A DNA stretch of 64,000 nt, taken from assembly GCA_027486655.1 (NCBI GenBank), contig JAIXOR010000078.1, positions 62,001-126,000 of the forward strand, given 5' to 3'. Positions 46,382-64,000 of the stretch are shown one piece after another (position 1 is the first letter of the stretch; each line of letters opens with the position of its first letter). Position numbers and translations under genes: made by a program. Source of the DNA: Verrucomicrobiaceae bacterium (GTDB lineage Bacteria > Verrucomicrobiota > Verrucomicrobiia > Verrucomicrobiales > Akkermansiaceae). The notes beneath the pieces were generated by a model. It was not told the origin of the DNA. It made no database searches and was given only the letters and a program-made list of their open reading frames with translations.

Positions 46382-48172
46382 ATGACACCCACGACCATAA
46401 AACCTCACAGCAAGCTGCGGGCATACTCCTACCTTCGGATTTCAAGTCCGGAGCAAATCAAAGGTGACGGCATCCGCCGCCAACTCGATTCCACCAACGA
46501 ATACTGTGAAAAGAACGGGCTGGTTCTGGAGACCCGGCCGCTGACGGATCTGGGCCTCTCCGGGTTCCACGGAGACAACCTCGCCAAAGGTGCGCTCGGC
46601 ATCTTCCGAAACGCGGTGGAAAACGGGAAAATCGAAACCCCATGCGCCCTCGTTGTTGAAAAGCTCGACCGGATCTCCCGTCAGGACATCGAAACCGCCG
46701 TCGGTCTCATTCTCGGCCTCATCGGCTGCGGGGTGGAAATCCATACGGTCATGGACCAGCAGATCTACCGTAAGGGGCAGATGGACATGACCAAGTTCAT
46801 CATCTCCATCGTCACGCTGTCCCGCGGCCACGAGGAAAGCCTGACCAAATCCAAAAGGCTCAGCGCCGCCTGGATCAAAAAACGGGAACTCGCCCACAAG
46901 AAGATCCTCACCCGGGTTTGCCCCGGATGGCTCAAGCCGAAAGAAGACCTTTCGGGATTCGACATCATCCCGGAACGGGCTGCCCTCGTCCGTGAAATCT
47001 TCGAGCTTACGGCCGCCGGCCACAACAAGGCCAAGATCGCCGCCATCCTCAACGACAGGAAAGAACCCATCTGGGACACCGGCAGGAAGAGCAAACCGGT
47101 CCGCTGGCACGACACCTTCATCAACAACTTGCTGACAGGCCGAGCCGTCCTCGGAGAACTCCGAACCTGCAATCTGGTCGGTGGCGTCCGCAAATACGAC
47201 CTCCCCCGCATTCAGGATTACTACCCTAGGATTATCAGCGAGGAACTTTGGAACAACGCCAGCACCTCCAACGCCGCCCGCAGGCGTCAGCGTGCTTACT
47301 ACCCTGACCCCGACGGCCCGCGCAATCTGGTGCCGGGACTCGTATGGATCAACGGGCAAAAGGCATTCTGGAGAAACCGCGGCTGCCGCCGCAACCATGT
47401 GTGGAAACGTCCAAGGAAAACCCAAGTGCCCCGATACTGGGTTTATTACATCACCAAGAAAACGACGACCGGAAAGGTCCAGGACTCCATACCCCGGGAA
47501 ATAGCCGAATCCATGATCGTCGGTAGGCTCGTTAGCGTCCAGCCAAGCGACCTCACAGTCGCTCCATTGGTGGATGAAAAAGCCAACCGTCGAAACATCC
47601 TCACCGCCCGCATCCAGGAACTGGAAACCGGCATCGCTCGAATGGTTTCCGCCATCCGGAAATCCGACGACGGCAGTGCGCCCACAGCGCTGCTCCAACA
47701 AATCAAGGAGGACGAACGCTCACTGGACCTCGCACAGATCGAACTCCGGAAACTCGACGCCTCTCAAACCGAAACCATCCAAGTAGGCAAAACCCTTCCC
47801 GACAGCCTTGCCGCCATCCGGGAACTCGCGCTCCAACAAAACGACCCCGTCATCCGGGAACAGCTCACCCGCCATCTCACCAATATCATTGCCCGAGTGG
47901 ACCTCGCCACAGCTCCGGAACACCTGCCGGATTGGTGCCGGACCGGTGCCATGGCTCTGGCCAAACTCTACCAAGACGAACCCGAAGGAAAAGACAGCGC
48001 TTCCGCATGGGTCGGCATCACCCTGCGCGACGGGACCCGCATCGCCGGCTTCGCCACCGGCGACCCGAACCAACCGAAAATCATCACCGTGGAACCCGGC
48101 ACGAACGTGCCGAAAAAGAAAGTCCACCTCTACATCGGCGCAGGAACCGTCCGAGCCGAACAGCCGGAATGA
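46382..48172 (+). CDS. Large serine recombinase (integrase)
   Basis: 596 residues. The N-terminal resolvase domain has catalytic Ser21 in YLRISS and the arginine motif VEKLDRISRQDIETA. The 'recombinase' domain (about 170-290; IIPERAALVREIFELTAAGH; RWHDTFINNLLTGRAVLGEL) and a zinc-ribbon-like part (NRGCRRNHVW, only one clear Cys) follow. A coiled-coil region is at about 400-460. This is the usual layout of phage and ICE integrases that insert at a specific att site without host factors. It lies next to the broken comEC and reads away from it. A terminator follows at 48201. No recombination directionality factor was recognised nearby. Confidence 0.9.
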   Translation: MTPTTIKPHSKLRAYSYLRISSPEQIKGDGIRRQLDSTNEYCEKNGLVLETRPLTDLGLSGFHGDNLAKGALGIFRNAVENGKIETPCALVVEKLDRISRQDIETAVGLILGLIGCGVEIHTVMDQQIYRKGQMDMTKFIISIVTLSRGHEESLTKSKRLSAAWIKKRELAHKKILTRVCPGWLKPKEDLSGFDIIPERAALVREIFELTAAGHNKAKIAAILNDRKEPIWDTGRKSKPVRWHDTFINNLLTGRAVLGELRTCNLVGGVRKYDLPRIQDYYPRIISEELWNNASTSNAARRRQRAYYPDPDGPRNLVPGLVWINGQKAFWRNRGCRRNHVWKRPRKTQVPRYWVYYITKKTTTGKVQDSIPREIAESMIVGRLVSVQPSDLTVAPLVDEKANRRNILTARIQELETGIARMVSAIRKSDDGSAPTALLQQIKEDERSLDLAQIELRKLDASQTETIQVGKTLPDSLAAIRELALQQNDPVIREQLTRHLTNIIARVDLATAPEHLPDWCRTGAMALAKLYQDEPEGKDSASAWVGITLRDGTRIAGFATGDPNQPKIITVEPGTNVPKKKVHLYIGAGTVRAEQPE

Positions 48173-48294: not shown

Positions 48295-49326
48295 ATGTCA
48301 TTTCAGGATCTAGTCGAGAACCTTAAAACGATGATCGTGTCGCATCGCACACACGACGAGGATGGCTTTCGCCAGAGCGCGGAGGCGATTATCAGGTCGC
48401 TCAATGTCCAAAACAGACCGGGCGAAGCCCGGAGCATTCGCGAGGCACTTCGGCTAAGCGAAACGAAGAGCGGAAAGCGGGCGGCTACCGTCCATCCGGT
48501 GGCAAATGTATCATTCTCCGTTTTGACCAGGCAAGTGCCCGGATTGATTTCGTTTGTGCAGCCACCCGGCCAGCGTCATTTGGTTCTTCAAAAAGAAACA
48601 ACCAGATCTCTTGATCTGGTAGTGAGCGAACACCAGGCGGTGAACAAACTTGCGGAGTCTGGACTAATGCCACGCAGGAAACTTCTTTTCTGGGGGCCTC
48701 CAGGTTGCGGCAAGACGGCCACGGCCCAATGGCTGGCGCAGCAACTGGGAATCCCTTGTGGTGTCGTTCGTCTTGCAAGCTTGATAACCAGCTATGTCGG
48801 CGAGACCGGGGCCAATATCCAAAAGGTGCTTCAAATCGCCAACCAGACACCTATGGTGCTTCTGATCGACGAGGCTGACGCCATTGCCAAGTCCCGGGAC
48901 GATGGAAATGATGTAGGCGAACTCAGGCGTGTCGTGAACACTCTCCTGCAGGGACTGGATTCTTTCACGGCCAGCCATAGCATCGTGATTCTTGCCTCGA
49001 ACCACACTCACTTGTTCGACAGCGCGTTATGGCGTCGTTTTGATGACGTGATCGAGTTTCCGCTTCCTTCGGAAAAGGAGCGTCTTGAGCTGTTGCGCTA
49101 CCTCACAAATGGAATAAAAATCAATGGTAGCCTTGCAACTGTCGCCAAAGGCACGGCCGGCTGCTCCTACGCTGAGGTTGAAAGGGCGGTTTTCGAGGTG
49201 GCGAAATCGGTAGTGATTGAAAACAGAACCTCAGCCACTGGCGCGGAGATTCTGAGAGCGTCGCAACAATTCAGAAGAAAGATCACCTCCGCCACGTCAC
49301 GGAGAAGAAAGCCCACCGTAAGATGA
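48295..49326 (+). CDS. IetA-like AAA ATPase
   Basis: 343 residues. An N-terminal helical part of about 95 residues is followed by one AAA+ module: Walker A GPPGCGKT at 134-141, Walker B LLIDEAD at 189-195, sensor 1 ILASNHT and an arginine-finger segment ALWRRFDD. Its stop overlaps the ATG of a subtilisin-like gene by 4 bases. A lone AAA ATPase coupled to a subtilase is the IetAS arrangement, known from plasmid maintenance and reported as an anti-phage system (Iet). The ATPase probably controls the protease. Its GC content is lower than in the flanking chromosome, as in the rest of the island. Confidence 0.78.
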   Translation: MSFQDLVENLKTMIVSHRTHDEDGFRQSAEAIIRSLNVQNRPGEARSIREALRLSETKSGKRAATVHPVANVSFSVLTRQVPGLISFVQPPGQRHLVLQKETTRSLDLVVSEHQAVNKLAESGLMPRRKLLFWGPPGCGKTATAQWLAQQLGIPCGVVRLASLITSYVGETGANIQKVLQIANQTPMVLLIDEADAIAKSRDDGNDVGELRRVVNTLLQGLDSFTASHSIVILASNHTHLFDSALWRRFDDVIEFPLPSEKERLELLRYLTNGIKINGSLATVAKGTAGCSYAEVERAVFEVAKSVVIENRTSATGAEILRASQQFRRKITSATSRRRKPTVR

Positions 49327-51743
49327 ACCCGGAGTTCCCACCCTTGTGCTTTCCAGAGCCGGAGATCCGGCGGCGCAGGCGGCAGCGGGCAGGATTTTCA
49401 CCCGGAAGCCTACCTACAGCCGAACAGCGGAGGATTACGGCTCAGCGGGTGATTCAGCAAAAGGCCAGACTCGACCACGAGATGTCACGATTAACGCCGG
49501 AACAGCTCCGAGCGGTGATCTTGAAACTACGGCATGACAGGCCATTGACTTTGGAGGACTTAGCGGGAACAGGTTTACGATTCATCGGCGAGCCCGGTGA
49601 TAACGAAAGCCTGGTTTTCCCCAAGAACGATAGCTTAGCCAAATTGTCTCAACGTGCTCAGGCCTATGAGGCGGGATCAAAAAAGAGTCTGATAGCGCAT
49701 CCGGGATTGATCTCCGTGGTAAGCGAAATGGAGATCGCTGATGCTAAGGACCGGGTTTCAGAGGAAATATTAAATCGGTATGAGGAACTGATCCAGCAAG
49801 AGCATCTGATTTACGAAATTGAGGTGAGCGCGACAAAATCCAGCCAAGACCTGACAAAAAGGCGGGAAATCGAGAGCATCATTTCAGAGATCCGGAACAC
49901 ACTAGGCCATGGCGTTCACGGAAGGATTTACGACGTGGATTTTCAGGTGGAAGGAGCCGTTCTGATGGTTTCGACAACCGGCACCAAGCTGCAGGAATGG
50001 GTCGAGAACCCCAAATGGTGGCGGAAGATCACGCGGTTCGAATTGCGTCCGAAATTCCAGACGATGACCGAGGTGTTGGCAGGCTTCAACGTCGAGCGAA
50101 TTTCGATTAATCCACCTCCCCCCAATGCGGAGACTATTTGCATCATTGATAGTGGGATAGCCGTGGGCAACCCCTTTCTTGGACCTGTGACCCAACGGGA
50201 TGCCAGCCGTTCATGGGTATTTGGAACATCCCCGGTTGAGGATTTCAATGGGCACGGTTCAGGTGTCGCTTCGCTCGCCGCCTATCATTCGATCAGTTAC
50301 GAGGAGGGTGGTGAAAATCAGGCGTCGGCGTGGGTGGTAAGCGCACGCATCATGACCGACGATGGCGAACTGGATTCTCCTGTGATCGAAGATGCTGCCG
50401 ATGATCGTAACGAACAGGCCTGGCTCCTTTCTAATATTCTGAGGGAAATCGTTGAGCACTTCGTTCCCCTAGGAGTTCGCATTTTTGTATTGGCCTTCGA
50501 AATGCAGGGGCACATTTGGAGCCATGCAACTCGGCGACAAGTAGCTCGCAACGCTTGGATAGCACGAACCATTGACCAACTCAGCCGCCAGTATGACGTA
50601 ACATTTGTTTGCATTACCGGGAACTTGGCACCGCGGGACGCTGAGGAACTTCGAGAAGAAACAGAGACGGATTACCCGCATTATCTCCTATCGCCTTATG
50701 CCAAACTGCTTGATCCCGGCCCAGCCGCACTTGCGGTAATCTGTGGTTCGATCTCCCATTCCACCCAAGTTGTTGGAGGCGAGCATGGCTTGATTGCCGG
50801 TATGGATGCGCCTTCGCCATTCACACGAACGGGTCCTGGATTTGGTGACAGCATTAAACCCGACGTGGTCGAATATGGGGGCAGCCTCGTGAGAGACTTG
50901 GAAACAGACCGAATCGTGCCAAATTTAGGCACATCGGTGGTCATGGCCAGCAACATGCTTACTCCGGCTCTCAGCCGGAACATCGGCACGAGCTATGCCG
51001 CGCCGCGAGTCGCCAACCACCTTGCGATGATTTTGAGGGATGCCAAGTCGCTGGGAATTGATCCAAGTGCAACCCTACTTCGGGCCTTTCTGGCGGCATC
51101 CTGCAAGGATGCGGAAGTATCCGAAGGATTGGGAAAATCCGAGAAGCTGGCGCTGGTCGGGCATGGCAGGCCTGATGGAAATGAGGCGATGCTTTGTCGA
51201 GGTCATTCGGTTCTACTCTATTGGGATGGAGCTGTCGAACTGGAGTCGACCGCCATTCTGCGAATTCACGTGCCATCCGAAATCATGATGGCAGGTCGCA
51301 GCAAAAAGCGGATTACTGTTGCCGTTGCAGCCTCGCCTGCCGTGCAGCGCTGGGGACTGGGCGATTACCTCGGTGCCAATCTGAAGTTCTGGCTTTATCG
51401 GGGCGACAAGTCTACCGACGATATATTGATTCAGCATCAGCGGGAACTGGATGAACCTAATACTGCCCCAGCTTCTTCAGAAGATCACATGGTTGGCGAA
51501 CTTGGGATCAACACCCGCAGCGTGGGAACGCTGCAACGCGATGTATTCGAATGGTCGGAACATCGCGACGAGTTCAGCGACTACGACTATACCCTCGCTG
51601 TTTCGGTCTGGGGTGCCGCCAAATGGGTGAAGGACGTGGATCGCACAGTTCCGCTTGCCGTGGTTGTTCGAATCGAAGAAACCTCGGGTGTTTATCAGGA
51701 GCTTTACTCCCGGGTGAGCACTCGGGTTCGTGCGACTTCGTAA
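49323..51743 (+). CDS. IetS-like subtilisin-family serine protease
   Basis: 806 residues. The S8 triad is complete: Asp276 in CIIDSGIA, His311 in NGHGSGVASLA, and Ser557 in GTSYAAPRVA. A helical N-terminal part of about 260 residues precedes the protease, and about 220 beta-rich residues follow. There is no signal peptide, so it acts in the cytoplasm, unlike most subtilases and as expected for IetS. It is translationally coupled to the AAA ATPase. A cytoplasmic protease of this kind would need tight control, which fits the toxin-antitoxin-like description of IetAS. Confidence 0.8.
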   Translation: MNPEFPPLCFPEPEIRRRRRQRAGFSPGSLPTAEQRRITAQRVIQQKARLDHEMSRLTPEQLRAVILKLRHDRPLTLEDLAGTGLRFIGEPGDNESLVFPKNDSLAKLSQRAQAYEAGSKKSLIAHPGLISVVSEMEIADAKDRVSEEILNRYEELIQQEHLIYEIEVSATKSSQDLTKRREIESIISEIRNTLGHGVHGRIYDVDFQVEGAVLMVSTTGTKLQEWVENPKWWRKITRFELRPKFQTMTEVLAGFNVERISINPPPPNAETICIIDSGIAVGNPFLGPVTQRDASRSWVFGTSPVEDFNGHGSGVASLAAYHSISYEEGGENQASAWVVSARIMTDDGELDSPVIEDAADDRNEQAWLLSNILREIVEHFVPLGVRIFVLAFEMQGHIWSHATRRQVARNAWIARTIDQLSRQYDVTFVCITGNLAPRDAEELREETETDYPHYLLSPYAKLLDPGPAALAVICGSISHSTQVVGGEHGLIAGMDAPSPFTRTGPGFGDSIKPDVVEYGGSLVRDLETDRIVPNLGTSVVMASNMLTPALSRNIGTSYAAPRVANHLAMILRDAKSLGIDPSATLLRAFLAASCKDAEVSEGLGKSEKLALVGHGRPDGNEAMLCRGHSVLLYWDGAVELESTAILRIHVPSEIMMAGRSKKRITVAVAASPAVQRWGLGDYLGANLKFWLYRGDKSTDDILIQHQRELDEPNTAPASSEDHMVGELGINTRSVGTLQRDVFEWSEHRDEFSDYDYTLAVSVWGAAKWVKDVDRTVPLAVVVRIEETSGVYQELYSRVSTRVRATS

Positions 51744-51870
51744 TTGGATCATGGCGTCTTCGAGGATGGGCACTTGGACTCCTCCCTTTGACCTTCCCAG
51801 CTATCAATATTTCCGCTCTTCTTACTCCGTGCCACTGAGGCCGCCAGAACTCCGCATTTTCCCTGATTTC

Positions 51871-54800
51871 ATGCCACCAACCGGACCCCAGTCGAATTCA
51901 TCCCTGCGCGATAACCGCACCCACCGGGGCACCGTCGGGGATTTTCTCAAATCCGAGATTCAGCCGGGCAGCCATCTGTCTTTTGTTTCCGCGTATTTCA
52001 CGGTTCACGCCTACGAAGCGCTCGCGTCACAACTCGAAGGTGCCGCAAAACTCCAGTTCCTTTTCGGAGAGCCCTCGTTCGTCACGGGCATTGACCGGGG
52101 CGACAAGGGGAAGGCGAATTTCAAGCTCACCGAACACGGCATCACCATCGCCAAGACCCTGACCCAGCGACCCGCCGCCAAGGCTTGTGCCGAATGGATT
52201 GAACGCATGGTGGAAATCCGCTCGATCCGCCAATCCAATTTCCTCCACGGCAAGGCCTACCATATCGAAAACGGCAACGCGTCCAGCGCGATCCTGGGCA
52301 GCTCGAATTTCACCGTCCCCGGACTAGGCCTCGGCACCAACAGCAATGTCGAATTGAATCTCGTGGTCGATTCCGACCGCGACCGCAAGGACCTCAAGGC
52401 ATGGTTCATGGAAGTCTGGGGTGACGATACCCTCACCAAGGACGTTCGCGACGAGGTTCTCACCTACCTCAAGCGCCTCGCCTCGCCGAATTCCCCGCAG
52501 TTCATCTACTTCCTGACCCTCTTCCACCTCTTCCGCGACGAACTGGAGGGCACCAAGGACGTCGATGATGCACTGAAACGCACCACCCTGCTGGAATCCC
52601 AAGTCTGGAAGATGCTCTATTCCTTCCAGCGCGACGGCGCGAAAGGTGCCATCAACAAGCTCCTCGAATTCAATGGCTGCATCCTCGCTGACAGCGTTGG
52701 TCTGGGAAAAACCTTTGAGGCCCTCGCCGTCATCAAATACTTCGAACTTCGCAACGAGCGCGTTCTTGTTCTCTGCCCGAAGAAACTCCGCCCGAACTGG
52801 ACGGTCTTCAAATCCAACAGCCGCCTCAACCCGCTGCTGGAGGACGGCTTCGGCTTTGATGTCGTTTCCCACACGGACCTCTCCCGCACGAGCGGACTCA
52901 CCGGCGACATCGACCTCGCGAATTTCAACTGGCACAACTACAGCCTCATCGTCATCGACGAATCCCACAACTTCCGCAACAACGCTGTCGGCAAACCCAA
53001 GGAAGACGGCACACCCCGGCGGACCCGCTACGAGCGCTTGCTGGAGGAAGTGATTCAGAAAGGACAAAAAACCAAAGTCCTCCTTCTCTCCGCCACCCCG
53101 GTCAACAACCAGATTGCCGATCTCCGGAATCAAATCTCCTTCATCGCCGGTGGAGATGTCGCCCGTGACGCCAGCGGCGAGCATGACGGCGCATTCAAGG
53201 AAAAGCTGGGCATTCCCAGCATCAAGGAAACCACCCGGAAGGCTCAGGCCAAGTTCACCAACTGGACCAAGAAGCCAGCCAGCGAGCGCAAGGCCCGCGA
53301 TCTCATCCACGAACTCGGCAGCGACTTCTTCAAGCTGCTGGACGGCCTCTCCATTGCCCGCTCGCGCTCCCAGATCAAGCGCTACTACGCCAAGGAAATG
53401 GAACGCCTCGGCGGCTTCCCCAAGCGTGAGAAACCTGCCGCCGAATACCCGAGTATTGATCTCCACAACGAATTCATCTCCTTCGAGGAACTCGACCTGA
53501 AGATCAGCGAGCTGAAACTCAGCCTCTATCACCCCAGCACCAAACTGAAGAAAAACCTCCCTCCCGAGGTCCTTGCGAAATACGCGGCGAAAATCGGCAA
53601 CTTCAACCAGGAAGGCCGCGAGCGGATCCTCATCTGCATGATGAAGATCAATTTCCTCAAACGTCTCGAAAGCTCCATCGACTCCTTCCGCCTCACGCTC
53701 CAGCGCACCATCGAGAAAATCGACAAGCTGGAAACCAAGATCCAGGCATTCGAAAACAAGCGGGACAACAACCCCACATTCGATTTCGCCAATCTATCCG
53801 AAGACGACTTCGACGATTTGGACCTCGATCCCGAGGACCTCGAAATCGGCGGCAAGCACAAGATCAACCTCGCCCACCTGAATCTTCCCGAGTGGTTGCT
53901 CGCCGTCCGGCAAGACCGGGCGCAACTCCAGAACCTGCTGGATCACTCCCGCCCCGTCGTTCCTGCCCGCGATGCCAAGCTTGCCCGCGTCCGGGAACTC
54001 ATCGCCGCCAAGGCCGCGAATCCGGCGGAAAACATCGACGGCATGTCCGTGCGGAAAATCATCCTCTTTACCGCCTTTGCCGATACCGCCCGCTACCTTC
54101 ACGACAACCTTGCTGCTTGGGCGAAGGACACCCTTGGCATCCACAGCGCCCTTGTCTGCGGCGGCGGCCAATACAAAACCTCGCTCGGCAAGGCGGACCT
54201 CGAACACATCCTCACCAACTTCTCGCCCATCTCGAAAAAGCGCGACCGCCAGCCGGAACTCCCGCAGGATCAAGAAATCGACCTGCTCATCGCCACGGAC
54301 TGCATTTCGGAAGGTCAGAACCTCCAGGACTGCGACCTGCTCATCAATTACGACATCCACTGGAACCCCGTCCGCATCATCCAGCGCTTCGGGCGCATCG
54401 ACCGGATTGGTTCCCGGAACAAATCCGTTTCACTCATCAACTTCTGGCCCACCAAGGACCTCGACGCCTACCTCAACGTCAAAAACCGCGTGGAAGACCG
54501 CATGGCGCTCGTCGATCTAACCGCTTCCGGTGAGGACAACCTGCTCGCCTCCGACCAGATTGAAGACCTGATCAAGGCGGATCTCCATTATCGGAACAAA
54601 CAACTCAAGGACTTGCAAAAAGGGGTTGTCGATTTCGATGAGGAAGACCCGGAGGGAATCTCACTCGCCGACTTTTCCCTAACCGACTTCCGGCTGGACC
54701 TCCTCCGGTTCCTCGAAAACAACCGCGAACTTCTGGAAACCGCCGAACTCGGCCTCTTTGCCGTCGTGCCGCCCGATCCAGAATTGCCCGTCTCCCAGCC

Positions 54801-55212
54801 AGGCATCCTGTTTTGTCTCCGCCAGCGGGACAACAAGCGCCCCACCGAGGTCAATCCACTCGCACCCTACTACCTCGTCTATGTGCTGGATGACGGAAAC
54901 GTCCGCCTCACCTTCATGCAGCCGAAGCAGTGCCTGGAACTCTTTCGCGCCCTCGCCGCCGGTCACGCCAGCGCATTCACCGACTTATGCGATGCCTTCG
55001 ATGCTCGAAATGCCAATGGCTCCGACATGAGCCACGAATCACGCCTGCTCGATTCCGCCATGGAATCCATCAAACGCACCTTTGCCCGGCGCGCCACCAC
55101 CTCGCTCCTCTCCGGCCGCGACGGCCTGCTACCCATGGCCTCTGAAACCCCAACATCTTCCGACGATATGGAACTCGTCACCTGGCTCGTAGTCATGGAA
55201 CCCCAACCCTGA
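51871..55212 (+). CDS. SNF2-type helicase with N-terminal PLD-like nuclease domain
   Basis: 1113 residues from the ATG at 51871; an in-frame start at 51730 overlaps the protease gene and its extra 47 residues look non-coding. Residues about 20-180 are phospholipase D-like, with one HxK motif (HGKAYHI, His126) and GSSNFT. The superfamily 2 motor follows: motif I DSVGLGKT at 274-281, motif II DESH at 363-366, motif III SATP, and motif VI QRFGRIDRIG. A charged insertion (about 600-660; LSEDDFDDLDLDPEDLEIGG) separates the lobes. It probably moves along DNA and cuts it. The AlbA_2 fragment and a large methyltransferase follow, implying a restriction-like defence unit. Confidence 0.82.
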   Translation: MPPTGPQSNSSLRDNRTHRGTVGDFLKSEIQPGSHLSFVSAYFTVHAYEALASQLEGAAKLQFLFGEPSFVTGIDRGDKGKANFKLTEHGITIAKTLTQRPAAKACAEWIERMVEIRSIRQSNFLHGKAYHIENGNASSAILGSSNFTVPGLGLGTNSNVELNLVVDSDRDRKDLKAWFMEVWGDDTLTKDVRDEVLTYLKRLASPNSPQFIYFLTLFHLFRDELEGTKDVDDALKRTTLLESQVWKMLYSFQRDGAKGAINKLLEFNGCILADSVGLGKTFEALAVIKYFELRNERVLVLCPKKLRPNWTVFKSNSRLNPLLEDGFGFDVVSHTDLSRTSGLTGDIDLANFNWHNYSLIVIDESHNFRNNAVGKPKEDGTPRRTRYERLLEEVIQKGQKTKVLLLSATPVNNQIADLRNQISFIAGGDVARDASGEHDGAFKEKLGIPSIKETTRKAQAKFTNWTKKPASERKARDLIHELGSDFFKLLDGLSIARSRSQIKRYYAKEMERLGGFPKREKPAAEYPSIDLHNEFISFEELDLKISELKLSLYHPSTKLKKNLPPEVLAKYAAKIGNFNQEGRERILICMMKINFLKRLESSIDSFRLTLQRTIEKIDKLETKIQAFENKRDNNPTFDFANLSEDDFDDLDLDPEDLEIGGKHKINLAHLNLPEWLLAVRQDRAQLQNLLDHSRPVVPARDAKLARVRELIAAKAANPAENIDGMSVRKIILFTAFADTARYLHDNLAAWAKDTLGIHSALVCGGGQYKTSLGKADLEHILTNFSPISKKRDRQPELPQDQEIDLLIATDCISEGQNLQDCDLLINYDIHWNPVRIIQRFGRIDRIGSRNKSVSLINFWPTKDLDAYLNVKNRVEDRMALVDLTASGEDNLLASDQIEDLIKADLHYRNKQLKDLQKGVVDFDEEDPEGISLADFSLTDFRLDLLRFLENNRELLETAELGLFAVVPPDPELPVSQPGILFCLRQRDNKRPTEVNPLAPYYLVYVLDDGNVRLTFMQPKQCLELFRALAAGHASAFTDLCDAFDARNANGSDMSHESRLLDSAMESIKRTFARRATTSLLSGRDGLLPMASETPTSSDDMELVTWLVVMEPQP

Positions 55213-55238
55213 CTTCTATTTGCCTCCCTACCCCTGAA

Positions 55239-55529
55239 ATGAAACGCAGCGAATCCCAGCACACCGAATGGAAGGAGTCGTGGTGCGACGATCGTCTTCG
55301 CTGGGTTTCCGGATTCGCCAACGCCGAAGGCGGGTGTCTGGAAATCGGACGCAATGACAAGGGCGAAATCGTAGGCTTGGCGGATGCCCGGAAATTGCTC
55401 GAAGACCACCCCAACAAAATCCGCGATCTGCTGGGTATTCTCGTAGCGGTCAATCTCCACCATACCGACGGAAGGCCTTGGCTCGTGATCGAAGTCGATG
55501 CCTATTCGAATCCAACGACGGCCAACTAA
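55239..55529 (+). CDS. Short AlbA_2/Schlafen-type ATP-binding protein, probably truncated
   Basis: 96 residues. TEWKESWCDDRLRWVSGFAN and AEGGCLEIGRNDKGEIVGL are the AlbA_2 (Schlafen-like) core, continuing to PWLVIEVDAYSNP, where homologues carry on with a Gly/Tyr-rich strand and some hundreds more residues. Here the reading frame stops after TTAN. It could be a minimal working subunit or a decayed gene. It sits 26 bases after the helicase and 65 before the methyltransferase. These 65 bases are AT-rich and hold no further AlbA_2 sequence that I can see. Confidence 0.65.
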   Translation: MKRSESQHTEWKESWCDDRLRWVSGFANAEGGCLEIGRNDKGEIVGLADARKLLEDHPNKIRDLLGILVAVNLHHTDGRPWLVIEVDAYSNPTTAN

Positions 55530-55594
55530 TCGCACGGGTTTCCTGATCCATTTCAGCATCTCAACTTTTAAAAATTTCAGCTTCTACCCTCACA

Positions 55595-58500
55595 ATGCCT
55601 GATCTCCGCGAATCCATCACCACCGCTCTCAGTGACTTCGCGGTTCAGCCACTCCGCGTATCAGCATTTGCGTTTTTCAGAACGCTTGGCTACCAATCCG
55701 ACCGCTCAGCAGACTGGTCGCTCGAATCCTTCCTAGAACTCGCTGCCCAAAGTCGCCGCCCACTCAGCACCGAGGACATTAAATCCCTTCGGCAGCTAAC
55801 CTCCCTTCATCTTCTCTTTCAGCTCACCGACGCCGAAGTCTCCGATGTCCTCTCTGGGCAACAGTCTTTCCCCGATTCTTCGGTGAAGGAAACAGAAATG
55901 GAATCCTACCTGTTCTTCGCAGCCGAACTGCCAGCGGGACCATACACCCGCACGGAACTTTCCACCCTCGTCCGAGCCATCAACAAGCCATTGCCCATGC
56001 CGGCAATGGTGTTGCTGAAACACGGGAAAATCCTTTCTCTAGGCATTATCCACCGCCGCCTGAATAAACGGGATCGCTCCAAAGACGTTCTCGAAAAGGT
56101 CACCCTGATCAAGGACATCAACCTTGCCGATCCCATCCGCGCACATATCGAAATCCTTCATGATTTTTCGCTATGGAAGCTCGCTGCCGATTTCCCATTC
56201 CCGAAGGATGAAAACCCTTTCGTCTCCCTGCATTCCGCTTGGCAAAAGCGACTTGGCTCCTACGTACTCTCTAACAATTTCTACCGTGAGATCGCCGATT
56301 GGTATTTCTGGGCTCTCCATCAAATCGAAGACGGCGCGATCCGGCTACCCGAGCACTGCGACACCGAGCAGGAAAAATCCCTTTTCCTTATCCGGCTGCT
56401 CACCCGCATGATTTTCTGCTGGTTCCTCGTCGAGAAACGTCTCATCCCCGCTGATCTCTTCCGCGTCCACAGCCTGAAAAAACTCATCAAGGACTTCCAC
56501 CCGTCCGCCGATCCGAAAAAACCCGATTCCTCACCCGCCTATTACCACGCCATCCTTCAAAACCTCTTCTTCGGCACCCTCAACATGCCGCCCGAACAGC
56601 GCGGCTTTCGCGAGCGGAAAAAGGAGGGCGAGCGCTTCGATCCCAACTTCGGCATCACCACCCTCTGGCGTCATGAGTCCACCTTCCACGATCCCACCGA
56701 GTGGATCGCTCTCGCCAAAAGCGTCCCGTTCCTCAACGGCGGCCTCTTCGATTGCCTCGACGACAAGACCGGCAAGAAGACGGACAACACCATCCTCGAC
56801 GGCTTCTCGGACACCCCCAAGCTCTCCTGCCACCTCCCGAACGACCTATTCTTCGGCCCCGAGCGCAATGAGGATCTATCCAAGGATTACGGCGAGGAAG
56901 ACAAACGCACCGCCCGCTCAAAAAAGGCCAAGGTCCGCGGCCTCATCGAAATCCTCTCCCGTTACAAATTCACCATCGAGGAAAATACGCCCCTAGAAGA
57001 GGAAATCGCCCTCGATCCTGAGCTGTTGGGAAAAGTCTTCGAAAACCTGCTCGCCTCCTACAACGAGGACACCCGAACCACTGCCCGCAAAGCCCTCGGA
57101 GCCTTTTACACGCCACGCGAGATCGTCACCTACATGGTGGACGAGTCGCTGAAATCCTACCTCACCAGCCAAGTCCCCAAGTGCAAAGGAGCCTTGGAAG
57201 ATCTCTTCTCCAACAAGGCCACCCTCAAGGAAATCCAGCCCGCCACCCGTGCCGCCCTCATCGACGCCATCGGTCGCGTGAAAATCCTCGATCCTGCCTG
57301 CGGCTCAGGTGCTTTCCCGATGGGCGCGCTCCACCGCCTAGTCGATCTGCTCCAAAAGCTCGATCCCGAGAATGCCCGCTGGCGGGAAATCCAGCGCCAG
57401 CGTGCCCTCTCGGAAACCGAAGCAGCTTTCAAATCCGGCGATCGCGAAACGCGCGAACAGCGGCTCAAGGAAATCAACGACACCTTCGAGTTCAATTCCT
57501 CAGACTACGGCAGAAAGCTATATCTCATCGAAAACGCCATTTACGGTGTGGACATCCAGCCCGTCGCCGTCCAGATCGCCAAGCTCCGCTTCTTCATTGC
57601 CCTCGTAGTGGATCAGCGCGTCTGCCCGAAGGAAAACAACCTAGGCGTCCGCCCGCTGCCCAACCTCGAAACCCGCCTCGTCGCCGCCGACACACTCATT
57701 CCTATTCCGCGCCCGAAACTCCAACAGGCCAGCCTCTTCGGCGACGACGTGGCCACCCTCAAGCAAGTACAGCAGCTCAAACGGCGTCTCCAATCCGTAA
57801 GGCACGAACACTTCAATGCCCGCGAGCCACGCAAGAAGCGCTCCTGCAAGGAAAAGGATCAGCAAATACGCGCTGAACTCAGTGCCGTCCTCTCAGACAA
57901 AGCCAGCATGGATGCCCCCATCGCCGCGAAGCTCGCCGCCTGGGATCCCTACGACCAAAACAACTTCGCTCCCTTCTTCGACTCGGAGTGGATGTTCGGC
58001 ATACCCATAGGGAAAATCAGCGGCGACAGCCCGGCAACTCCCGCCACCTTGCGAGGCAATCTTGGTCTCATTAACGAAACGAGCGGCCAGACCGAGCTGA
58101 CCGAAGCGAAGGCGAAAGACGTGGATAGCGGATTTGATGTGGTGATCGGAAACCCTCCCTATATTCGAATCCAAACGCTCAAGCAGAAAGATCCCGGTAT
58201 CGTTGCCTTCTACAAAGACACTTACGCCAGTGCGGCCAAGGGCAACTACGACATCTACGTGGTCTTCATTGAGGCGGGATTGAATTTGCTGAAATCCGAT
58301 GGGCACCTCGCTTACATTTGCCCTCACAAGTTTTTCAATTCACAATACGGTGAGCCAATTCGCGAAGTTATCTCCAAAGGAGAACACTTGCGCCACGTAG
58401 TTCATTTCGGAGACCAGCAGGTTTTTCCAGGAGCAACCATCTACACTTGTCTGTTGTTTCTAGCAAGGGCGGGCAGTGCTAGTTGTCAGATGGTGCGTGC

Positions 58501-59659
58501 GGAAGATTTGGACGCATGGAAGGCAAATCTGAGTGGGATCGAAGGGAAGATTCCTTCGTCGAGAATCACAAATTTGGAGTGGAATCTTGCTGTTGGCCGC
58601 GGTACCGAGATTTACGGAAAGCTTTCTGAAATGCCTGTGAAGCTTGGCGATGTAGCGGAAATTTTCGTGGGTCTCCAAACTAGCGCAGACACCGTTTTCC
58701 TCTTCAAAGACTCACAACGGTCAACTGGCAAATTGACTACAGTGCGAAGTAAGGAGAGCGGAGAAAATGTTCTGATCGAAACGGCTCTACTAAAACCCGT
58801 TGTACGTAGTGGCGAACTAGGCCGTTATTGGTCTGCTCCATCGGCTCTGGTTCTATTTCCTTACGAACAGGAAGGTGGTCGTTTTCAACTAATATCCAAA
58901 ATCAAAATGGAGAAGAAATATCCAGCGGCTTGGGCATATCTAATATCCCACAAGACGCTACTTTCCAATCGCGAACATGGTAAATTTGCAGCATCAGGAT
59001 GGTGGCAGTTGTATCCTAAGAATCTTGATCAATGGGAGCAGGCAAAGGTCATGGTTCCCTACATGATTACCGATTTGGCAGCTTACCATGACGAAGGCGG
59101 CACGTATTTTGTAAACGTCACCACCGGAGGATTTGGCATCACGATGCACCGAAGTGGTCGAAGCCTCGAGCTATTGACTGTTCTTCTCAATAGTTACTTG
59201 CTCGACTGGTTCCTAAAGAAGGTAAGTACAACTTTTCACGGAGGCTACTTTGCCGCAAATAAACAATTTCTCGTTCAACTTCCGATTGCGGACTGCCCGA
59301 TGAAGGAGCAATCAGTTGCAGTCGCACTATCCAGATTATTGCACGGGATCAAAAGGCTGCTGCCAATCACTAACCAAACCACCCGCGACCCCTTGATGGT
59401 GGCGTATTGGGAACGGACGCTGAATGGGTTGGTGTATGAGCTCTATTTCCCGGATGAAGTCCACGGGGCAGGGCTTCGGCTGTTCGATCTCGTGGAGAAA
59501 GCGAAACTCCCGGACGTAGATGCGCTTGCCGAAAAAGACCGCCTGCCGCGCCTGCGGCAGAAGTTCGAGGAACTGCACGACGGCGCCCACCCCCTTCGCA
59601 TCGCCCTCGACAAGCTCCAAACTCTCGAAATCGTCCGCATCATCGAAGGCAAGGCCTGA
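55595..59659 (+). CDS. Eco57I-type adenine-specific DNA methyltransferase (possible methyltransferase-nuclease)
   Basis: 1354 residues. Motif I is ILDPACGSGAFPMG at about 564-577 and motif IV is VVIGNPPYIRIQ at about 848-860, the gamma-class N6-adenine arrangement of Eco57I and PglX-like enzymes. About 500 residues precede the catalytic domain. The C-terminal 400 residues match the TaqI/Eco57I target-recognition region (HRSGRSLELLTVLLNSYLLD; FHGGYFAANKQFLVQLPIAD). No PD-(D/E)XK nuclease motif was confirmed in the N-terminus. With the PLD-helicase upstream it probably marks host DNA. From about 58.2 kb codon use becomes AT-richer than the first half, suggesting a mosaic gene with an exchanged recognition domain. 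Confidence 0.85.
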   Translation: MPDLRESITTALSDFAVQPLRVSAFAFFRTLGYQSDRSADWSLESFLELAAQSRRPLSTEDIKSLRQLTSLHLLFQLTDAEVSDVLSGQQSFPDSSVKETEMESYLFFAAELPAGPYTRTELSTLVRAINKPLPMPAMVLLKHGKILSLGIIHRRLNKRDRSKDVLEKVTLIKDINLADPIRAHIEILHDFSLWKLAADFPFPKDENPFVSLHSAWQKRLGSYVLSNNFYREIADWYFWALHQIEDGAIRLPEHCDTEQEKSLFLIRLLTRMIFCWFLVEKRLIPADLFRVHSLKKLIKDFHPSADPKKPDSSPAYYHAILQNLFFGTLNMPPEQRGFRERKKEGERFDPNFGITTLWRHESTFHDPTEWIALAKSVPFLNGGLFDCLDDKTGKKTDNTILDGFSDTPKLSCHLPNDLFFGPERNEDLSKDYGEEDKRTARSKKAKVRGLIEILSRYKFTIEENTPLEEEIALDPELLGKVFENLLASYNEDTRTTARKALGAFYTPREIVTYMVDESLKSYLTSQVPKCKGALEDLFSNKATLKEIQPATRAALIDAIGRVKILDPACGSGAFPMGALHRLVDLLQKLDPENARWREIQRQRALSETEAAFKSGDRETREQRLKEINDTFEFNSSDYGRKLYLIENAIYGVDIQPVAVQIAKLRFFIALVVDQRVCPKENNLGVRPLPNLETRLVAADTLIPIPRPKLQQASLFGDDVATLKQVQQLKRRLQSVRHEHFNAREPRKKRSCKEKDQQIRAELSAVLSDKASMDAPIAAKLAAWDPYDQNNFAPFFDSEWMFGIPIGKISGDSPATPATLRGNLGLINETSGQTELTEAKAKDVDSGFDVVIGNPPYIRIQTLKQKDPGIVAFYKDTYASAAKGNYDIYVVFIEAGLNLLKSDGHLAYICPHKFFNSQYGEPIREVISKGEHLRHVVHFGDQQVFPGATIYTCLLFLARAGSASCQMVRAEDLDAWKANLSGIEGKIPSSRITNLEWNLAVGRGTEIYGKLSEMPVKLGDVAEIFVGLQTSADTVFLFKDSQRSTGKLTTVRSKESGENVLIETALLKPVVRSGELGRYWSAPSALVLFPYEQEGGRFQLISKIKMEKKYPAAWAYLISHKTLLSNREHGKFAASGWWQLYPKNLDQWEQAKVMVPYMITDLAAYHDEGGTYFVNVTTGGFGITMHRSGRSLELLTVLLNSYLLDWFLKKVSTTFHGGYFAANKQFLVQLPIADCPMKEQSVAVALSRLLHGIKRLLPITNQTTRDPLMVAYWERTLNGLVYELYFPDEVHGAGLRLFDLVEKAKLPDVDALAEKDRLPRLRQKFEELHDGAHPLRIALDKLQTLEIVRIIEGKA

Positions 59660-60760: not shown

Positions 60761-61777
60761 ATGAATACCAACAGCAGCATCCCACTCCTCGAAGCCGTGT
60801 GCAAACGCGGCGTTCTCGTATCAACCTCCATACGCTACTGGCGCGGTTGCAAGCGGCTCAATGCCGAAGACCTTGGCTTGCACCCGAACCAGGTGTCAGA
60901 CCGGTTGATCCAACTCGGACACAAACGGCTGATCCCGCGAGACGCATTGAGCGACTTCGCTTTGATCGAATCCCGCGCTCATGCGAGCGTCGAGGGTTCC
61001 AGTTTTCCATTTCTTGGTGGCATCGCAAGATTTGTTCCCAATCCACGCCTGGCTGAGGTCAACGCCATGCTCGACAAGCTCCGTGAGGAGTTCGAGGAGG
61101 CAAAGGATCGGTTCGTCGACAACTATGCTCCCATGCGGGACAGGGCGATGGCGGAATGGCGCGAAGCCGCCCGCCATTTGAATGGCAGCGCGGAACACTT
61201 GATTGCCACGATTGAACAGTCCTTTCCCCCGTCCGGCGACATCGCGAAACGGTTCGGGTATGATGTGCAGATGTTCCAAATCACGGCACCTGAAGGAATC
61301 CGTCTCGAGGTGGCGGAAGGAATCGCGGAATTCGAAGTTGCCGACGACCGCCGCCGAATCGCGGAGGAGGCAACGAGGCGTTTGCAAACAGACCTTAACG
61401 GATTTATCCGCGAAAGCATCTCATCGCTCCGGCAAGAGACCGCACGCCTTGCGAGTGATGTATTGGCGACAATCGACGAGTCCAAGAATGGGGTCCATCA
61501 GCGCACTCTCAATCGACTTGCGACATTCATCGAAAGCTTCCGCTCGCTCAATTTTGCAGAGGACCAGCAGTTGGAGGGAACTCTGGAACGGTTTCGTCGG
61601 GAACTCCTCAACCGCAGCGCGGAGGAATACCGGAATAACCCCGGAGCCATGGCCAGCCTAACCGACGGGCTGAACCGTCTCCGGGAAAACGCGGTGGAGC
61701 TTGTCCGCAGTGACACGCGGGACGTGATCGCCAGGTTTGGACAGATGGGTAGCCGCCGCCTTGCTGCTGTCGGCTGA
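60761..61777 (+). CDS. DUF3150-family protein
   Basis: 338 residues. The N-terminal part (GVLVSTSIRYWRGCKRLNAE; FLGGIARFVPNPRLAEVNAM; LREEFEEAKDRFVDNYAPM) matches DUF3150, a family of phage- and island-encoded proteins often found beside AAA ATPases. The rest is mostly helical, with coiled-coil stretches (about 200-240, 260-320). No membrane segment or catalytic motif is visible. It leads an operon with the Ycf35-like, DUF2997 and AAA genes; the gap to the next gene is only 40 bases. A structural or adaptor role for the ATPase is an inference from context. Confidence 0.75.
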   Translation: MNTNSSIPLLEAVCKRGVLVSTSIRYWRGCKRLNAEDLGLHPNQVSDRLIQLGHKRLIPRDALSDFALIESRAHASVEGSSFPFLGGIARFVPNPRLAEVNAMLDKLREEFEEAKDRFVDNYAPMRDRAMAEWREAARHLNGSAEHLIATIEQSFPPSGDIAKRFGYDVQMFQITAPEGIRLEVAEGIAEFEVADDRRRIAEEATRRLQTDLNGFIRESISSLRQETARLASDVLATIDESKNGVHQRTLNRLATFIESFRSLNFAEDQQLEGTLERFRRELLNRSAEEYRNNPGAMASLTDGLNRLRENAVELVRSDTRDVIARFGQMGSRRLAAVG

Positions 61778-61817
61778 TCCCTCCGTTCCTCTGAATTGAA
61801 ATCATCACCAAAGAATC

Positions 61818-62207
61818 ATGTCACATTTCACAACCATTCAAACGAAGATCAGGGATCTCGCCGCGCTGGCGGATGCCTGCACCGAACTCGGCGTCCGTCT
61901 CGCCGCCAACACCGAATGCCGTGGCTATGCGGGAATTACCCGCAAGGCGACAAATGTCATTCAGCTTAAAGGGCCTTACGACATCGCTGTCGAAGCATCC
62001 GACACCAACGACGGCAATTATGGCCTGACCACCGACTGGTGGGACGGACACGTCGCCAAGGAAGTCGGCGAAGGCTACGGTCGCCTGCTCCAATCCTACG
62101 GAGTCCATAAAACAATGCGCGAGGCCCGTTTGCGTGGACTCCGCACAACCCGCAAGGTCGAAGCCGACGGCTCGATCCTGCTCACATTAGAAGGAGGTAA
62201 ACTGTGA
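61818..62207 (+). CDS. DUF1257 / Ycf35-like protein
   Basis: 129 residues. MSHFTTIQTKIRDLAALADA and the later YDIAVEASDTNDGNYGLTTD, WWDGHVAKEVG and YGRLLQSYG match DUF1257, known in algae and cyanobacteria as Ycf35. Function of the family is unknown. The last 4 bases overlap the next ATG. In cyanobacteria a DUF2997 gene commonly follows ycf35, and the same order is kept here in a heterotroph's mobile element. Confidence 0.8.
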   Translation: MSHFTTIQTKIRDLAALADACTELGVRLAANTECRGYAGITRKATNVIQLKGPYDIAVEASDTNDGNYGLTTDWWDGHVAKEVGEGYGRLLQSYGVHKTMREARLRGLRTTRKVEADGSILLTLEGGKL

Positions 62208-62410
62208 TCCGCAAAATCCAAGTCCGTATTACCCCGTCCGGTGAAATTACAGTGGAGGCCCACGGCTTCAAGGGGATGGGATGCGAAGCCGCAACCAAGG
62301 CGATTGAAGACGCGCTTGGCAAAGCAGGCACTCGCACGCGGAAACCGGATTTCTGGCGGCAGTCGAACGCTGCACGAAACCCGCAAAAGCTCGGAGGTGG
62401 GGAGGGATGA
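62204..62410 (+). CDS. DUF2997 protein
   Basis: 68 residues. MIRKIQVRITPSGEITVEAH followed by GFKGMGCEAATKAIEDALG is the DUF2997 core, a short protein regularly paired with Ycf35-like proteins. A basic tail (RTRKPDFWRQSNAARNPQKL) ends it. Both ends overlap neighbours by 4 bases, so expression is coupled to DUF1257 and to the next gene. Confidence 0.78.
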   Translation: MIRKIQVRITPSGEITVEAHGFKGMGCEAATKAIEDALGKAGTRTRKPDFWRQSNAARNPQKLGGGEG

Positions 62411-62652
62411 AATCCACCCTCCGCTTCCCGGCTGACGGTGGAACCGTCGAATGCCTCTACACCGAGGCCATCGACCTCCAAAAGCTCGGACCGCTCCAAA
62501 TCACCCGCGCTACCGACATTCGTTTCTGTGGACCAAACCAGCAATGGCAGGTCCATGAGGCCGGAACGGACCGCGTGCTTTTTTCCAATCCATCCCGCAG
62601 CGAATGCCTCGCATGGGAACTCCATAATCTCCAACCACGATCAAACTCATGA
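62407..62652 (+). CDS. Small protein of unknown function in the Ycf46-like operon
   Basis: 81 residues: STLRFPADGGTVECLYTEAI then DLQKLGPLQITRATDIRFCG and a mixed alpha/beta tail (NQQWQVHEAGTDRVLFSNPS). I recognise no family. Both ends overlap neighbouring genes by 4 bases, which argues for a real gene that works with the DUF2997 and AAA proteins. Confidence 0.65.
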   Translation: MKSTLRFPADGGTVECLYTEAIDLQKLGPLQITRATDIRFCGPNQQWQVHEAGTDRVLFSNPSRSECLAWELHNLQPRSNS

Positions 62653-64000
62653 ACCTTATTACCTACCTACAAGCCGGATACCCCGGCCTCGCCGTCATCA
62701 CTACCGAAGAAGCCCGTGCCGAAACCGAAATCGGAACCGTCTGCACCGCGCTCAACCGGCAGCTCCACGCGTGGTCATCAACCGAGGGACTGGTGGATTT
62801 GAGCGAGGGCCGCATCACCCAGTGTGCCGACCCGCTTGATGCCTTTCAGCTCCTGGAAGAATTGTTTGCCAAAAGAGAGCCACAGACCGTGGTTCTACTG
62901 CGCGATCTGCAACTTCACATGGATCAAACCGATCCAATGCTCATCCGCCGGATCAAGGACATTCTTCGCATCGCGAAGACCAGCGGCCACGCGCTAATTC
63001 TTTTGGGTTGTCGCCTCAATCTCCCGGCGGAGATTGATCACGAGATCACCCGGATCGAATTCGGGCTGCCGGACGCATCCGCCCTCTCTGCCGTCATGGA
63101 TGGCATCATCGCATCCGCTGGCCTGCCGGAACTGGAACCAGCGGTAAGGGAATCGGCATTGGCCAATTCGCTGGGGCTGACCACCACTGAGGCCGAGAAC
63201 GTATACGCGTTATCCGTTGTTGAAGCCAAAGCCATCGACCCGGCAATCATCGCTCGTGAAAAGGCCAATGCGCTCAAACGCAACGGGCTGGTCGAAATCG
63301 TCCAATCCAATACACGTCTGGAAGATGTTGGCGGACTGGAAAACCTCAAGCAATGGCTCGTACGCCGAGCTGGAGCATTCGGGCAAGCGGCCAAGGTCTA
63401 TGGACTCCCAGCCCCCAAAGGACTACTCATTGTGGGAATTCCCGGAACCGGGAAGTCCCTGACAGCCAAAGCCACCGCCAGCGCGTTTGGACTGCCACTG
63501 CTGCGGCTCGACATGGGACGCGTGTTCGGTGGAATCGTCGGCCAATCGGAGGCGAACTTGCGGGCCGTCATCCAGACCGCCGAGGCCATCGCGCCCTGCG
63601 TCTTGTGGATCGACGAAATCGAAAAGGGTTTCTCGGGCAGCAAGTCCAGCGGCGGCAGCGACGGGGGCACATCCTCCCGCGTTTTCGGATCCTTCCTCAG
63701 CTGGATGCAGGAAAAAGAAAAACCCGTCTTCGTTGTCGCCACTGCTAACGACGTTTCTCAACTGCCACCGGAATTCCTCCGCAAAGGACGGTTTGACGAG
63801 ATGTTTTTCGTGGACCTGCCGGATGCCGCCGAACGATCCCAAATCTGGGAAATCGTCATCGCCCGTCATGGACGCTTAACCACGGACTTTGATACAACGG
63901 CACTCGGGAAATCCGCTGAGCAATTTACTGGCGCGGAGATCGACGCTGTCTTCGTGGATGCTCTCTACGACGCATTTCTCGAAAACCGGGAACCCACCGA
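62649..64000 (+). CDS. Ycf46-like AAA ATPase (continues beyond window)
   Basis: 450 codons are visible, with the C-terminus off the edge. The opening [20 protein letters not shown] matches Ycf46, and the N-terminal 240 residues form the Ycf46-type regulatory part ([20 protein letters not shown]). The AAA module has Walker A GIPGTGKS at 263-270, Walker [11 protein letters not shown], the pore-like [12 protein letters not shown], sensor 1 VVATAND and the arginine finger LRKGRFDE. Cyanobacterial and plastid Ycf46 has an uncertain role in photosynthesis; this bacterium has no visible photosynthesis genes. The 4-base overlap ties it to the small genes before it. Confidence 0.82.

Follow-up and report, generated by a model that had tools for sequence, protein, structure and literature searches.

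The window analysed here is a 64,000-nucleotide stretch (positions 62001-126000) of a 135,571-base contig (JAIXOR010000078.1) from a Verrucomicrobiaceae bacterium, and at its end lies an operon of five genes, all in the same direction, head to tail, the last of which encodes an AAA ATPase resembling Ycf46. The first gene (60761-61777, + strand) encodes a DUF3150 protein of 338 amino acids (PF11348, 97.2 bits against a cut-off of 24.9, all Pfam assignments being judged against the curated cut-offs). After a spacing of 40 bases come a DUF1257 gene of the Ycf35 family (61818-62207, +; 129 amino acids; PF06868, 38.4 bits, cut-off 22.2), a DUF2997 gene (62204-62410, +; 68 amino acids; PF11211, 54.1 bits, cut-off 24.1), a gene designated G4 (62407-62652, +; 81 amino acids) and the gene for the Ycf46-like classical AAA ATPase (62649-64000, +; 505 amino acids; PF00004, 105 bits, cut-off 21.2). 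Overlaps of 4 bases can be read at all three junctions among these last four genes, so that the operon, its overlaps and its 40-base gap are as the original prediction had described them. The DUF2997 gene starts with GTG and has a Shine-Dalgarno-like GGAGG at 62193-62197; its product carries a cysteine within a G-x-x-G-x-x-C-like stretch. The AAA gene is cut at the window end and is complete in the contig, where it runs to the equivalent of window position 64166 (L003:6649-8166). G4, which reaches no Pfam family at its cut-off, had been listed as "unknown". It is not an orphan: a family model built in this analysis finds it in 17 of 91 loci in one scan and in 43 of 180 in another (window copies included), and it directly follows DUF2997 in three isolated tailed phages. 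G4 is a true, conserved fifth member of the module.

This gene order is more than chance. In its strict form it recurs in 23 of 35 loci, mostly of Verrucomicrobiota, all of which, the window's own included, were chosen for holding relatives of these genes; this count is a floor, because double DUF2997 or DUF1257 calls, probably overlapping frames, break the strict match elsewhere. A DUF2997 gene lies within 5 kb of 38 of the 44 DUF3150 places found in the taxonomic order. The five families have also diverged together: their pairwise distances correlate across 27 loci (r 0.44 to 0.92, the highest value being that of AAA with DUF1257), and in a permutation test none of 999 permutations reached any of the ten r values, part of the correlation reflecting the shared descent of the loci.

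The unit is conserved and at the same time patchily distributed. DUF1257 is present in 16 of 59 relatives. Among 288 genomes of the order, a tool-drawn sample of a larger group that includes the window's genome, DUF2997 occurs in 31 (47 places, with six in a single genome) and DUF3150 in 30 (44 places). The locus is not core in Verrucomicrobiota, so that the finding which the original prediction named as one that would refute it, a core chromosomal locus, does not hold there; it is patchy and sometimes multi-copy, which together with its presence on plasmids and phages and with the joint conservation of order and divergence bears out the idea of one multi-gene AAA module carried as accessory cargo. 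The closest named relatives among the matches listed belong to Verrucomicrobiaceae and Akkermansiaceae, including Luteolibacter and Haloferula, with 68-75% identity of the AAA protein over 329 to 505 residues.

For a wider view, relatives on viral contigs (the best 80 of at least 353) and in genomes (the best 80 of at least 510) were scanned, and profile models built in this analysis scored partner genes up to 7 kb from AAA. The 80 viral loci, which include near-duplicates, hold DUF3150 in 20 cases, DUF1257 in 26, DUF2997 in 28 and G4 in 14, with all four partners at 12 loci. The genome table comprises 79 loci (L100 of the 80 lacks an AAA match), which divide into 25 cyanobacterial loci, 17 with DUF3150 or G4 anywhere in the locus and 37 others. 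All four partners lie within 7 kb in 14 of those 17; the 37 others hold DUF1257 in 18 cases, DUF2997 in 21 and a Fer4_12 gene in 13, and 11 of them hold none of the families. The five-gene unit recurs in bacteria, on viral contigs and on a plasmid, and the original prediction's placing of Ycf35, DUF2997 and Ycf46 as families of cyanobacteria and plastids proved too narrow.

The AAA protein has the key motor residues expected of an active classical AAA ATPase. K269, D322, E323, N367, R378 and R381 are invariant in nine aligned relatives; we read K269 as the Walker A residue, D322-E323 as Walker B, N367 as a sensor and R378/R381 as arginine-finger residues. By sequence, its best relatives in the PDB are Cdc48/p97 (E 2e-54). 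The likeness to this class lies in the ATPase domain, but the window protein has a single such domain according to Pfam, and its partner families are presumably unlike the known Cdc48 cofactors. Among these partners, DUF1257 has nearly invariant S2, H3, D73 and Y94 (44 sequences) and a near-invariant MSH start. Its AlphaFold2 model is a small alpha/beta protein (predicted local distance difference test score, pLDDT, 88.9; predicted template modelling score, pTM, 0.83), and that of DUF3150 consists mostly of helices (mean pLDDT 80.2, pTM 0.72). Neither model finds a confident fold match in the PDB with Foldseek (best E 0.039 for DUF1257 and 0.38 for DUF3150), and a second fold comparison gave, for DUF1257, a best Z of 5.5 over 77 aligned residues with a root-mean-square deviation (rmsd) of 3.6 and, for the helical DUF3150, a Z of 10.5 over 104 residues (rmsd 3.4), both in the range that the tool calls common. 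A weak likeness of DUF1257 to the AAA protein Bcs1 (Z 4.3, 84 residues, rmsd 4.1) is not counted as evidence; Bcs1 moves an iron-sulphur (Fe-S) protein. DUF2997 proteins mostly contain cysteine. In one viral group (L014, L017, L030 and L044) DUF2997 has no cysteine and ends in a histidine-rich tail, and DUF1257 of the same group has MPC near its start in place of MSH.

Isolated phages carry the module as well. A DUF1257 search of phage records gave 17 matches at the lax E-value limit of 0.1. In Rhizobium phage L338C, Pseudomonas phage PA_L9 and Aeromonas phage HJ05, the genes for AAA, a protein of about 200 amino acids, DUF1257, DUF2997 and G4 are clustered, with one additional annotated gene ahead of DUF1257 in PA_L9, and the module is followed by a DnaB-type helicase, which our own model identifies in all three and the L338C annotation calls a replicative helicase, and then by polymerase or replication genes. 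These modules share the clustering of AAA, DUF1257, DUF2997 and G4 with the window, but they place AAA first, have the gene of about 200 amino acids between AAA and DUF1257 and are followed by replication genes; no DUF3150 match was found in the three phages. Rhodobacter phage RcMenchie has AAA, DUF1257 and DUF2997 and no G4 match. Proteins of the window match PHROG families 8638, 20456 and 23133, none of which has an assigned function. Terminase, SbcC/SbcD and DnaB, named by eye, occur near some of the viral-contig copies. On plasmids, one or more of the five families, with Fer4_12 counted among them, occur within 7 kb of AAA at five of six loci; the full set of four partners accompanies AAA on a Manganitrophus plasmid, and on a Paenibacillus plasmid AAA-DUF1257-DUF2997 stands with a 4Fe-4S gene. 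The 1651 plasmid records returned by the AAA search are not a count of modules, as the AAA domain also picks up other families of this class, IetA for example. On Treponema succinifaciens plasmid pTRESU01 (L004), AAA and a 4Fe-4S gene stand amid annotations of a contractile injection system or baseplate, and Mycobacterium phage Suarez (L011, Corndogvirus) has an annotated Ku-like gene some 4.7 kb away from AAA.

A further, abundant viral clade has AAA without the DUF partners. Clustering of 38 such loci, after removal by hand of 11 near-duplicates, yielded a family of about 265 amino acids within 5 kb in 24 of the 38 (L021, L029, L033, L049 and others) and a small family with a histidine-rich end in 14. 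The small family has no profile match to DUF1257, DUF2997, G4 or DUF3150. The larger one was considered as a hidden DUF3150, for which the profile comparison is suggestive only (probability 9, E 0.0036; DUF1257 control 0.2), and no claim is made.

The five genes of Verrucomicrobiota, mostly arranged as in the window, often belong to a larger block. Same-strand neighbours in the 35 loci include a family of about 175 amino acids (24 loci), a PD-(D/E)XK nuclease (24), a ligase with a WGR domain (16) and a sliding clamp (10). Two members of the ~175-residue family have no Pfam match at cut-off and three have no clear PHROG. The nuclease matches PD-(D/E)XK_1 with 117.7 and 102.3 bits, and its PHROG is exonuclease; the clamp is a diverged beta clamp, three members of which fall under the Pfam cut-offs, with the PHROG processivity factor at E 2.6e-25. 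The ligase combines WGR and ATP-dependent ligase domains, two members exceeding both cut-offs; the WGR domain of PARP2 is reported to bridge DNA ends (PMC8190142). The nuclease gene is directly preceded by the ~175-residue gene in 22 of the 35 loci, and among the families of the block the ligase comes next after the AAA gene in 14. Across the order, the ~175-residue family lies within 8 kb of 35 of the 44 DUF3150 places.

This block also exists on its own. In 20 hand-picked places of the ~175-residue family without the module, the nuclease is present in 18, DUF932 in 13 (one member tested, 31.0 bits), the clamp in eight (one member tested, PF02767, 47.8 bits) and the ligase in seven. Since places with the ~175-residue family, nuclease, ligase and clamp occur without AAA, the AAA module is one option within a broader DNA-processing block. 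Examples of the ~175-residue family with the exonuclease, WGR-ligase, clamp and DUF932 and no AAA module are L210, L213, L214 and L221, among others. The ~175-residue family occurs in up to six places in one genome, and on a viral contig of 72.7 kb from IMG/VR it adjoins a PD-(D/E)XK nuclease (L201:6935-8454).

What surrounds the operon in the window itself? Upstream lies a row of defence-type genes (48295-59659), the presence of which near the operon had been noted in the original prediction and was confirmed with PADLOC: IetA (48295-49326, +; 258 bits), IetS (49323-51743, +; 215 bits; an S8 peptidase), an HKD-Snf2 helicase (C3a139) and a type IIG/PglX-like methyltransferase (55595-59659, +; REase_MTase_IIG, 273.5 bits; Eco57I in Pfam, 132.7 bits), whose end is 1.1 kb from the start of the DUF3150 gene. 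The helicase and methyltransferase were also considered as CRISPR- or DISARM-type genes, a reading that was set aside; in PADLOC the helicase matches HKD+Snf2 best. Just upstream of IetAS, a large serine recombinase (46382-48172, +; PF00239, 51.1 bits; PF07508, 39.9 bits) is a candidate integrase for the element bearing the defence-type genes. Downstream of the AAA gene follow a ClpX-like AAA gene, a gene for a single-stranded DNA-binding protein (SSB) 2.2 kb past the AAA gene, a gene for a protein of 240 amino acids (L003:11148-11870; no Pfam or PHROG match) and one for a YARHG-SH3 protein; a relaxase gene lies near the contig end on the opposite strand. The recombinase, IetAS and restriction-modification (RM)-like genes on one side and the SSB and relaxase genes on the other place the operon between genes of defence type and one for mobilisation. 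A VWA or nuclease gene had been named as an example of what might come after AAA; the ClpX-like gene and SSB stand there instead, and no VWA gene, as in a MoxR-type pairing, is among the next genes. Neither of the two belongs to the module, the ClpX-like family being found in one of 180 loci, the window's own, and SSB in four of 180. No ClpP was found among the scanned proteins near the ClpX-like ATPase (L003:9013-10449). The 376 bases upstream of DUF3150, searched against the window's own genome, matched only that place itself. A tRNA-associated integration site is not claimed, as tRNA genes occur in five of 20 stretches scanned, by rough estimate little above chance.

Such a neighbourhood raises the question of whether the operon is an anti-phage defence cassette of the island, its AAA motor sensing or disabling phage complexes. 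Besides the row of IetAS, helicase and methyltransferase just upstream, the patchy and sometimes multi-copy occurrence of the module would fit this, as would PADLOC matches to type III RM, Cas1 and a type II methyltransferase among 91 neighbours from 14 other loci. That tally has no matched control, however, and the Pfam matches of the same neighbours range over kinases, sigma factors, methylases, resolvases and transport proteins. In PADLOC-DB 2.0.0, DUF1257, DUF2997 and G4 have no match and DUF3150 reaches 12 bits (E 0.015), and the AAA protein matches PADLOC models by its ATPase domain only, being most like IetA (80 bits). In addition, the module stands next to the phage's own replication genes in the isolated tailed phages, and in Verrucomicrobiota its neighbours are often exonuclease, clamp and ligase genes. 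The defence role that had been put forward therefore finds no support beyond proximity, and we regard it as improbable.

The likeness to IetA, together with the small overlapping genes within a mobile island, could alternatively point to element maintenance, that is, addiction or stabilisation in the manner of IetAS, with the AAA protein controlling a toxic partner such as DUF3150. IetAS, about 9 kb upstream, does share a classical AAA motor on the mobile island, but it has its own AAA gene, a true IetA scoring 258 bits on the model that gives the operon's protein 80, and no S8 peptidase gene occurs in the operon or adjoins it. Pfam reveals no peptidase or known toxin among the five genes, and AAA with DUF1257 occurs without a DUF3150 match in cyanobacteria, plasmids and isolated phages. 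Of the explanations considered here, maintenance is the least probable, and a very unlikely one.

From the gene context, we infer that the operon is a replication- or repair-linked AAA remodelling machine of mobile elements, a reading to which we give an even chance. The Ycf46-like ATPase would be the motor, presumably a hexamer like Cdc48/p97, and DUF1257, DUF2997, G4 and, in the window's flavour of the module, DUF3150 would act as dedicated adaptors or substrates through which the motor reaches its target, perhaps all within one complex. Such a machine may load, strip or remodel DNA-bound complexes, for example those of clamp, SSB, nuclease, helicase or recombination proteins, so that the mobile element is copied or breaks in its DNA are mended. 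The window's copy lacks the usual partners and has a ClpX-like ATPase and SSB downstream instead; there the operon would use other partners or would have been carried off as a five-gene cassette. A bolder version, which we hold more tentatively and think rather doubtful, is that this is an undescribed mobile-element replication/repair machine in which a Ycf46-type motor and four partners act, in Verrucomicrobiota, with the exonuclease, the clamp, a WGR-ligase that binds DNA breaks and the new ~175-residue family and, in phages, with helicase and polymerase, the Ycf46 and Ycf35 proteins of plastids and cyanobacteria being its fixed, domesticated remnant. In the literature searched, which leaves most subscription journals outside, there was no description of the module and no mention of DUF3150, in agreement with the earlier statement that the composition matches no described system; the publications that mention ycf46 together with phage are, as far as their visible text goes, not about the module.

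Several observations weigh against a machine for DNA replication or repair. At 50 of the 80 viral loci, no member of the five partner families, with Fer4_12 counted among them, lies within 7 kb of AAA. DUF3150 lies within 8 kb of only 35 of the 131 places of the ~175-residue family, and as most of these places have no AAA module, the two are frequent neighbours rather than parts of an obligate pathway. The window and the contig end hold, by the models built here, no ~175-residue gene, nuclease, clamp or ligase, in which this copy differs from the Verrucomicrobiota block with which it shares its core; in its own genome no ~175-residue gene or such ligase was found, an empty answer from the tool that shows little. 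The fold comparisons, which gave no confident match, also count on this side. The title of a cited Ycf46 study reportedly mentions CO2 utilisation. In cyanobacteria the AAA-DUF1257 pair looks fixed: among the best 80 genome relatives, 25 cyanobacterial matches have 42-44% identity to the AAA protein, and in all 25 loci DUF1257 follows 66-202 bases after the AAA gene, which we take to be the one named ycf46, with no DUF2997, G4, DUF3150 or Fer4_12 within 7 kb. DUF2997, ycf35 and the ferredoxin gene fed7 are reported to form a conserved cluster in cyanobacteria, where a fed7 mutant tolerates oxidative, metal and iron stress poorly (PMC4284462). The window shares the AAA family and DUF1257 with the cyanobacterial and plastid Ycf46/Ycf35 and the linkage of DUF2997 to DUF1257 with that cluster, but here DUF2997, G4 and DUF3150 stand in one operon at an accessory locus, and no ferredoxin family was found among the proteins scanned around it.

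Finally, there is a second flavour of the module, AAA-DUF1257-DUF2997 with a Fer4_12/radical-SAM gene, often where DUF3150 and G4 are absent, and its radical-SAM/4Fe-4S gene is not explained by DNA repair. This gene lies within 7 kb of AAA in 13 of the 37 other genome loci, seven of the 80 viral loci and three of the six plasmid loci. The module might accordingly be a redox- or Fe-S-linked chaperone in which AAA, DUF1257 and DUF2997 remodel or mature a metal- or Fe-S-dependent protein, with DNA genes as neighbours because their enzymes need it. Because the Fer4_12 flavour, the fed7 cluster with its stress-sensitive mutant, the near-invariant MSH start of DUF1257 and the histidine-rich DUF2997 tails of one viral group, besides the cysteine of most DUF2997 proteins, all fit such a role, it is a serious rival. 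Metal binding is putative, however, neither the window locus nor any of the 17 genome loci bearing DUF3150 or G4 has a Fer4_12 gene within 7 kb, and we consider this role unlikely, if somewhat less so than defence.

These findings matter beyond this locus. The accessory genes of Verrucomicrobiota gain a multi-gene block for DNA processing that recurs and includes families without a name. In a comparison of 127 red-algal plastid genomes, Ycf35 and Ycf46 are among four genes that differ in presence between marine and freshwater species, and they are kept in many of these plastids without a known mechanism (PMC5940233). With the Ycf35/Ycf46 pair placed inside a conserved AAA module of phages, plasmids and patchy bacterial islands, frequently close to genes of replication and repair, an annotation puzzle becomes testable in phage, and the view of Ycf46/Ycf35 as a remnant of such a module would, if true, give two long-standing chloroplast orphans a testable function.

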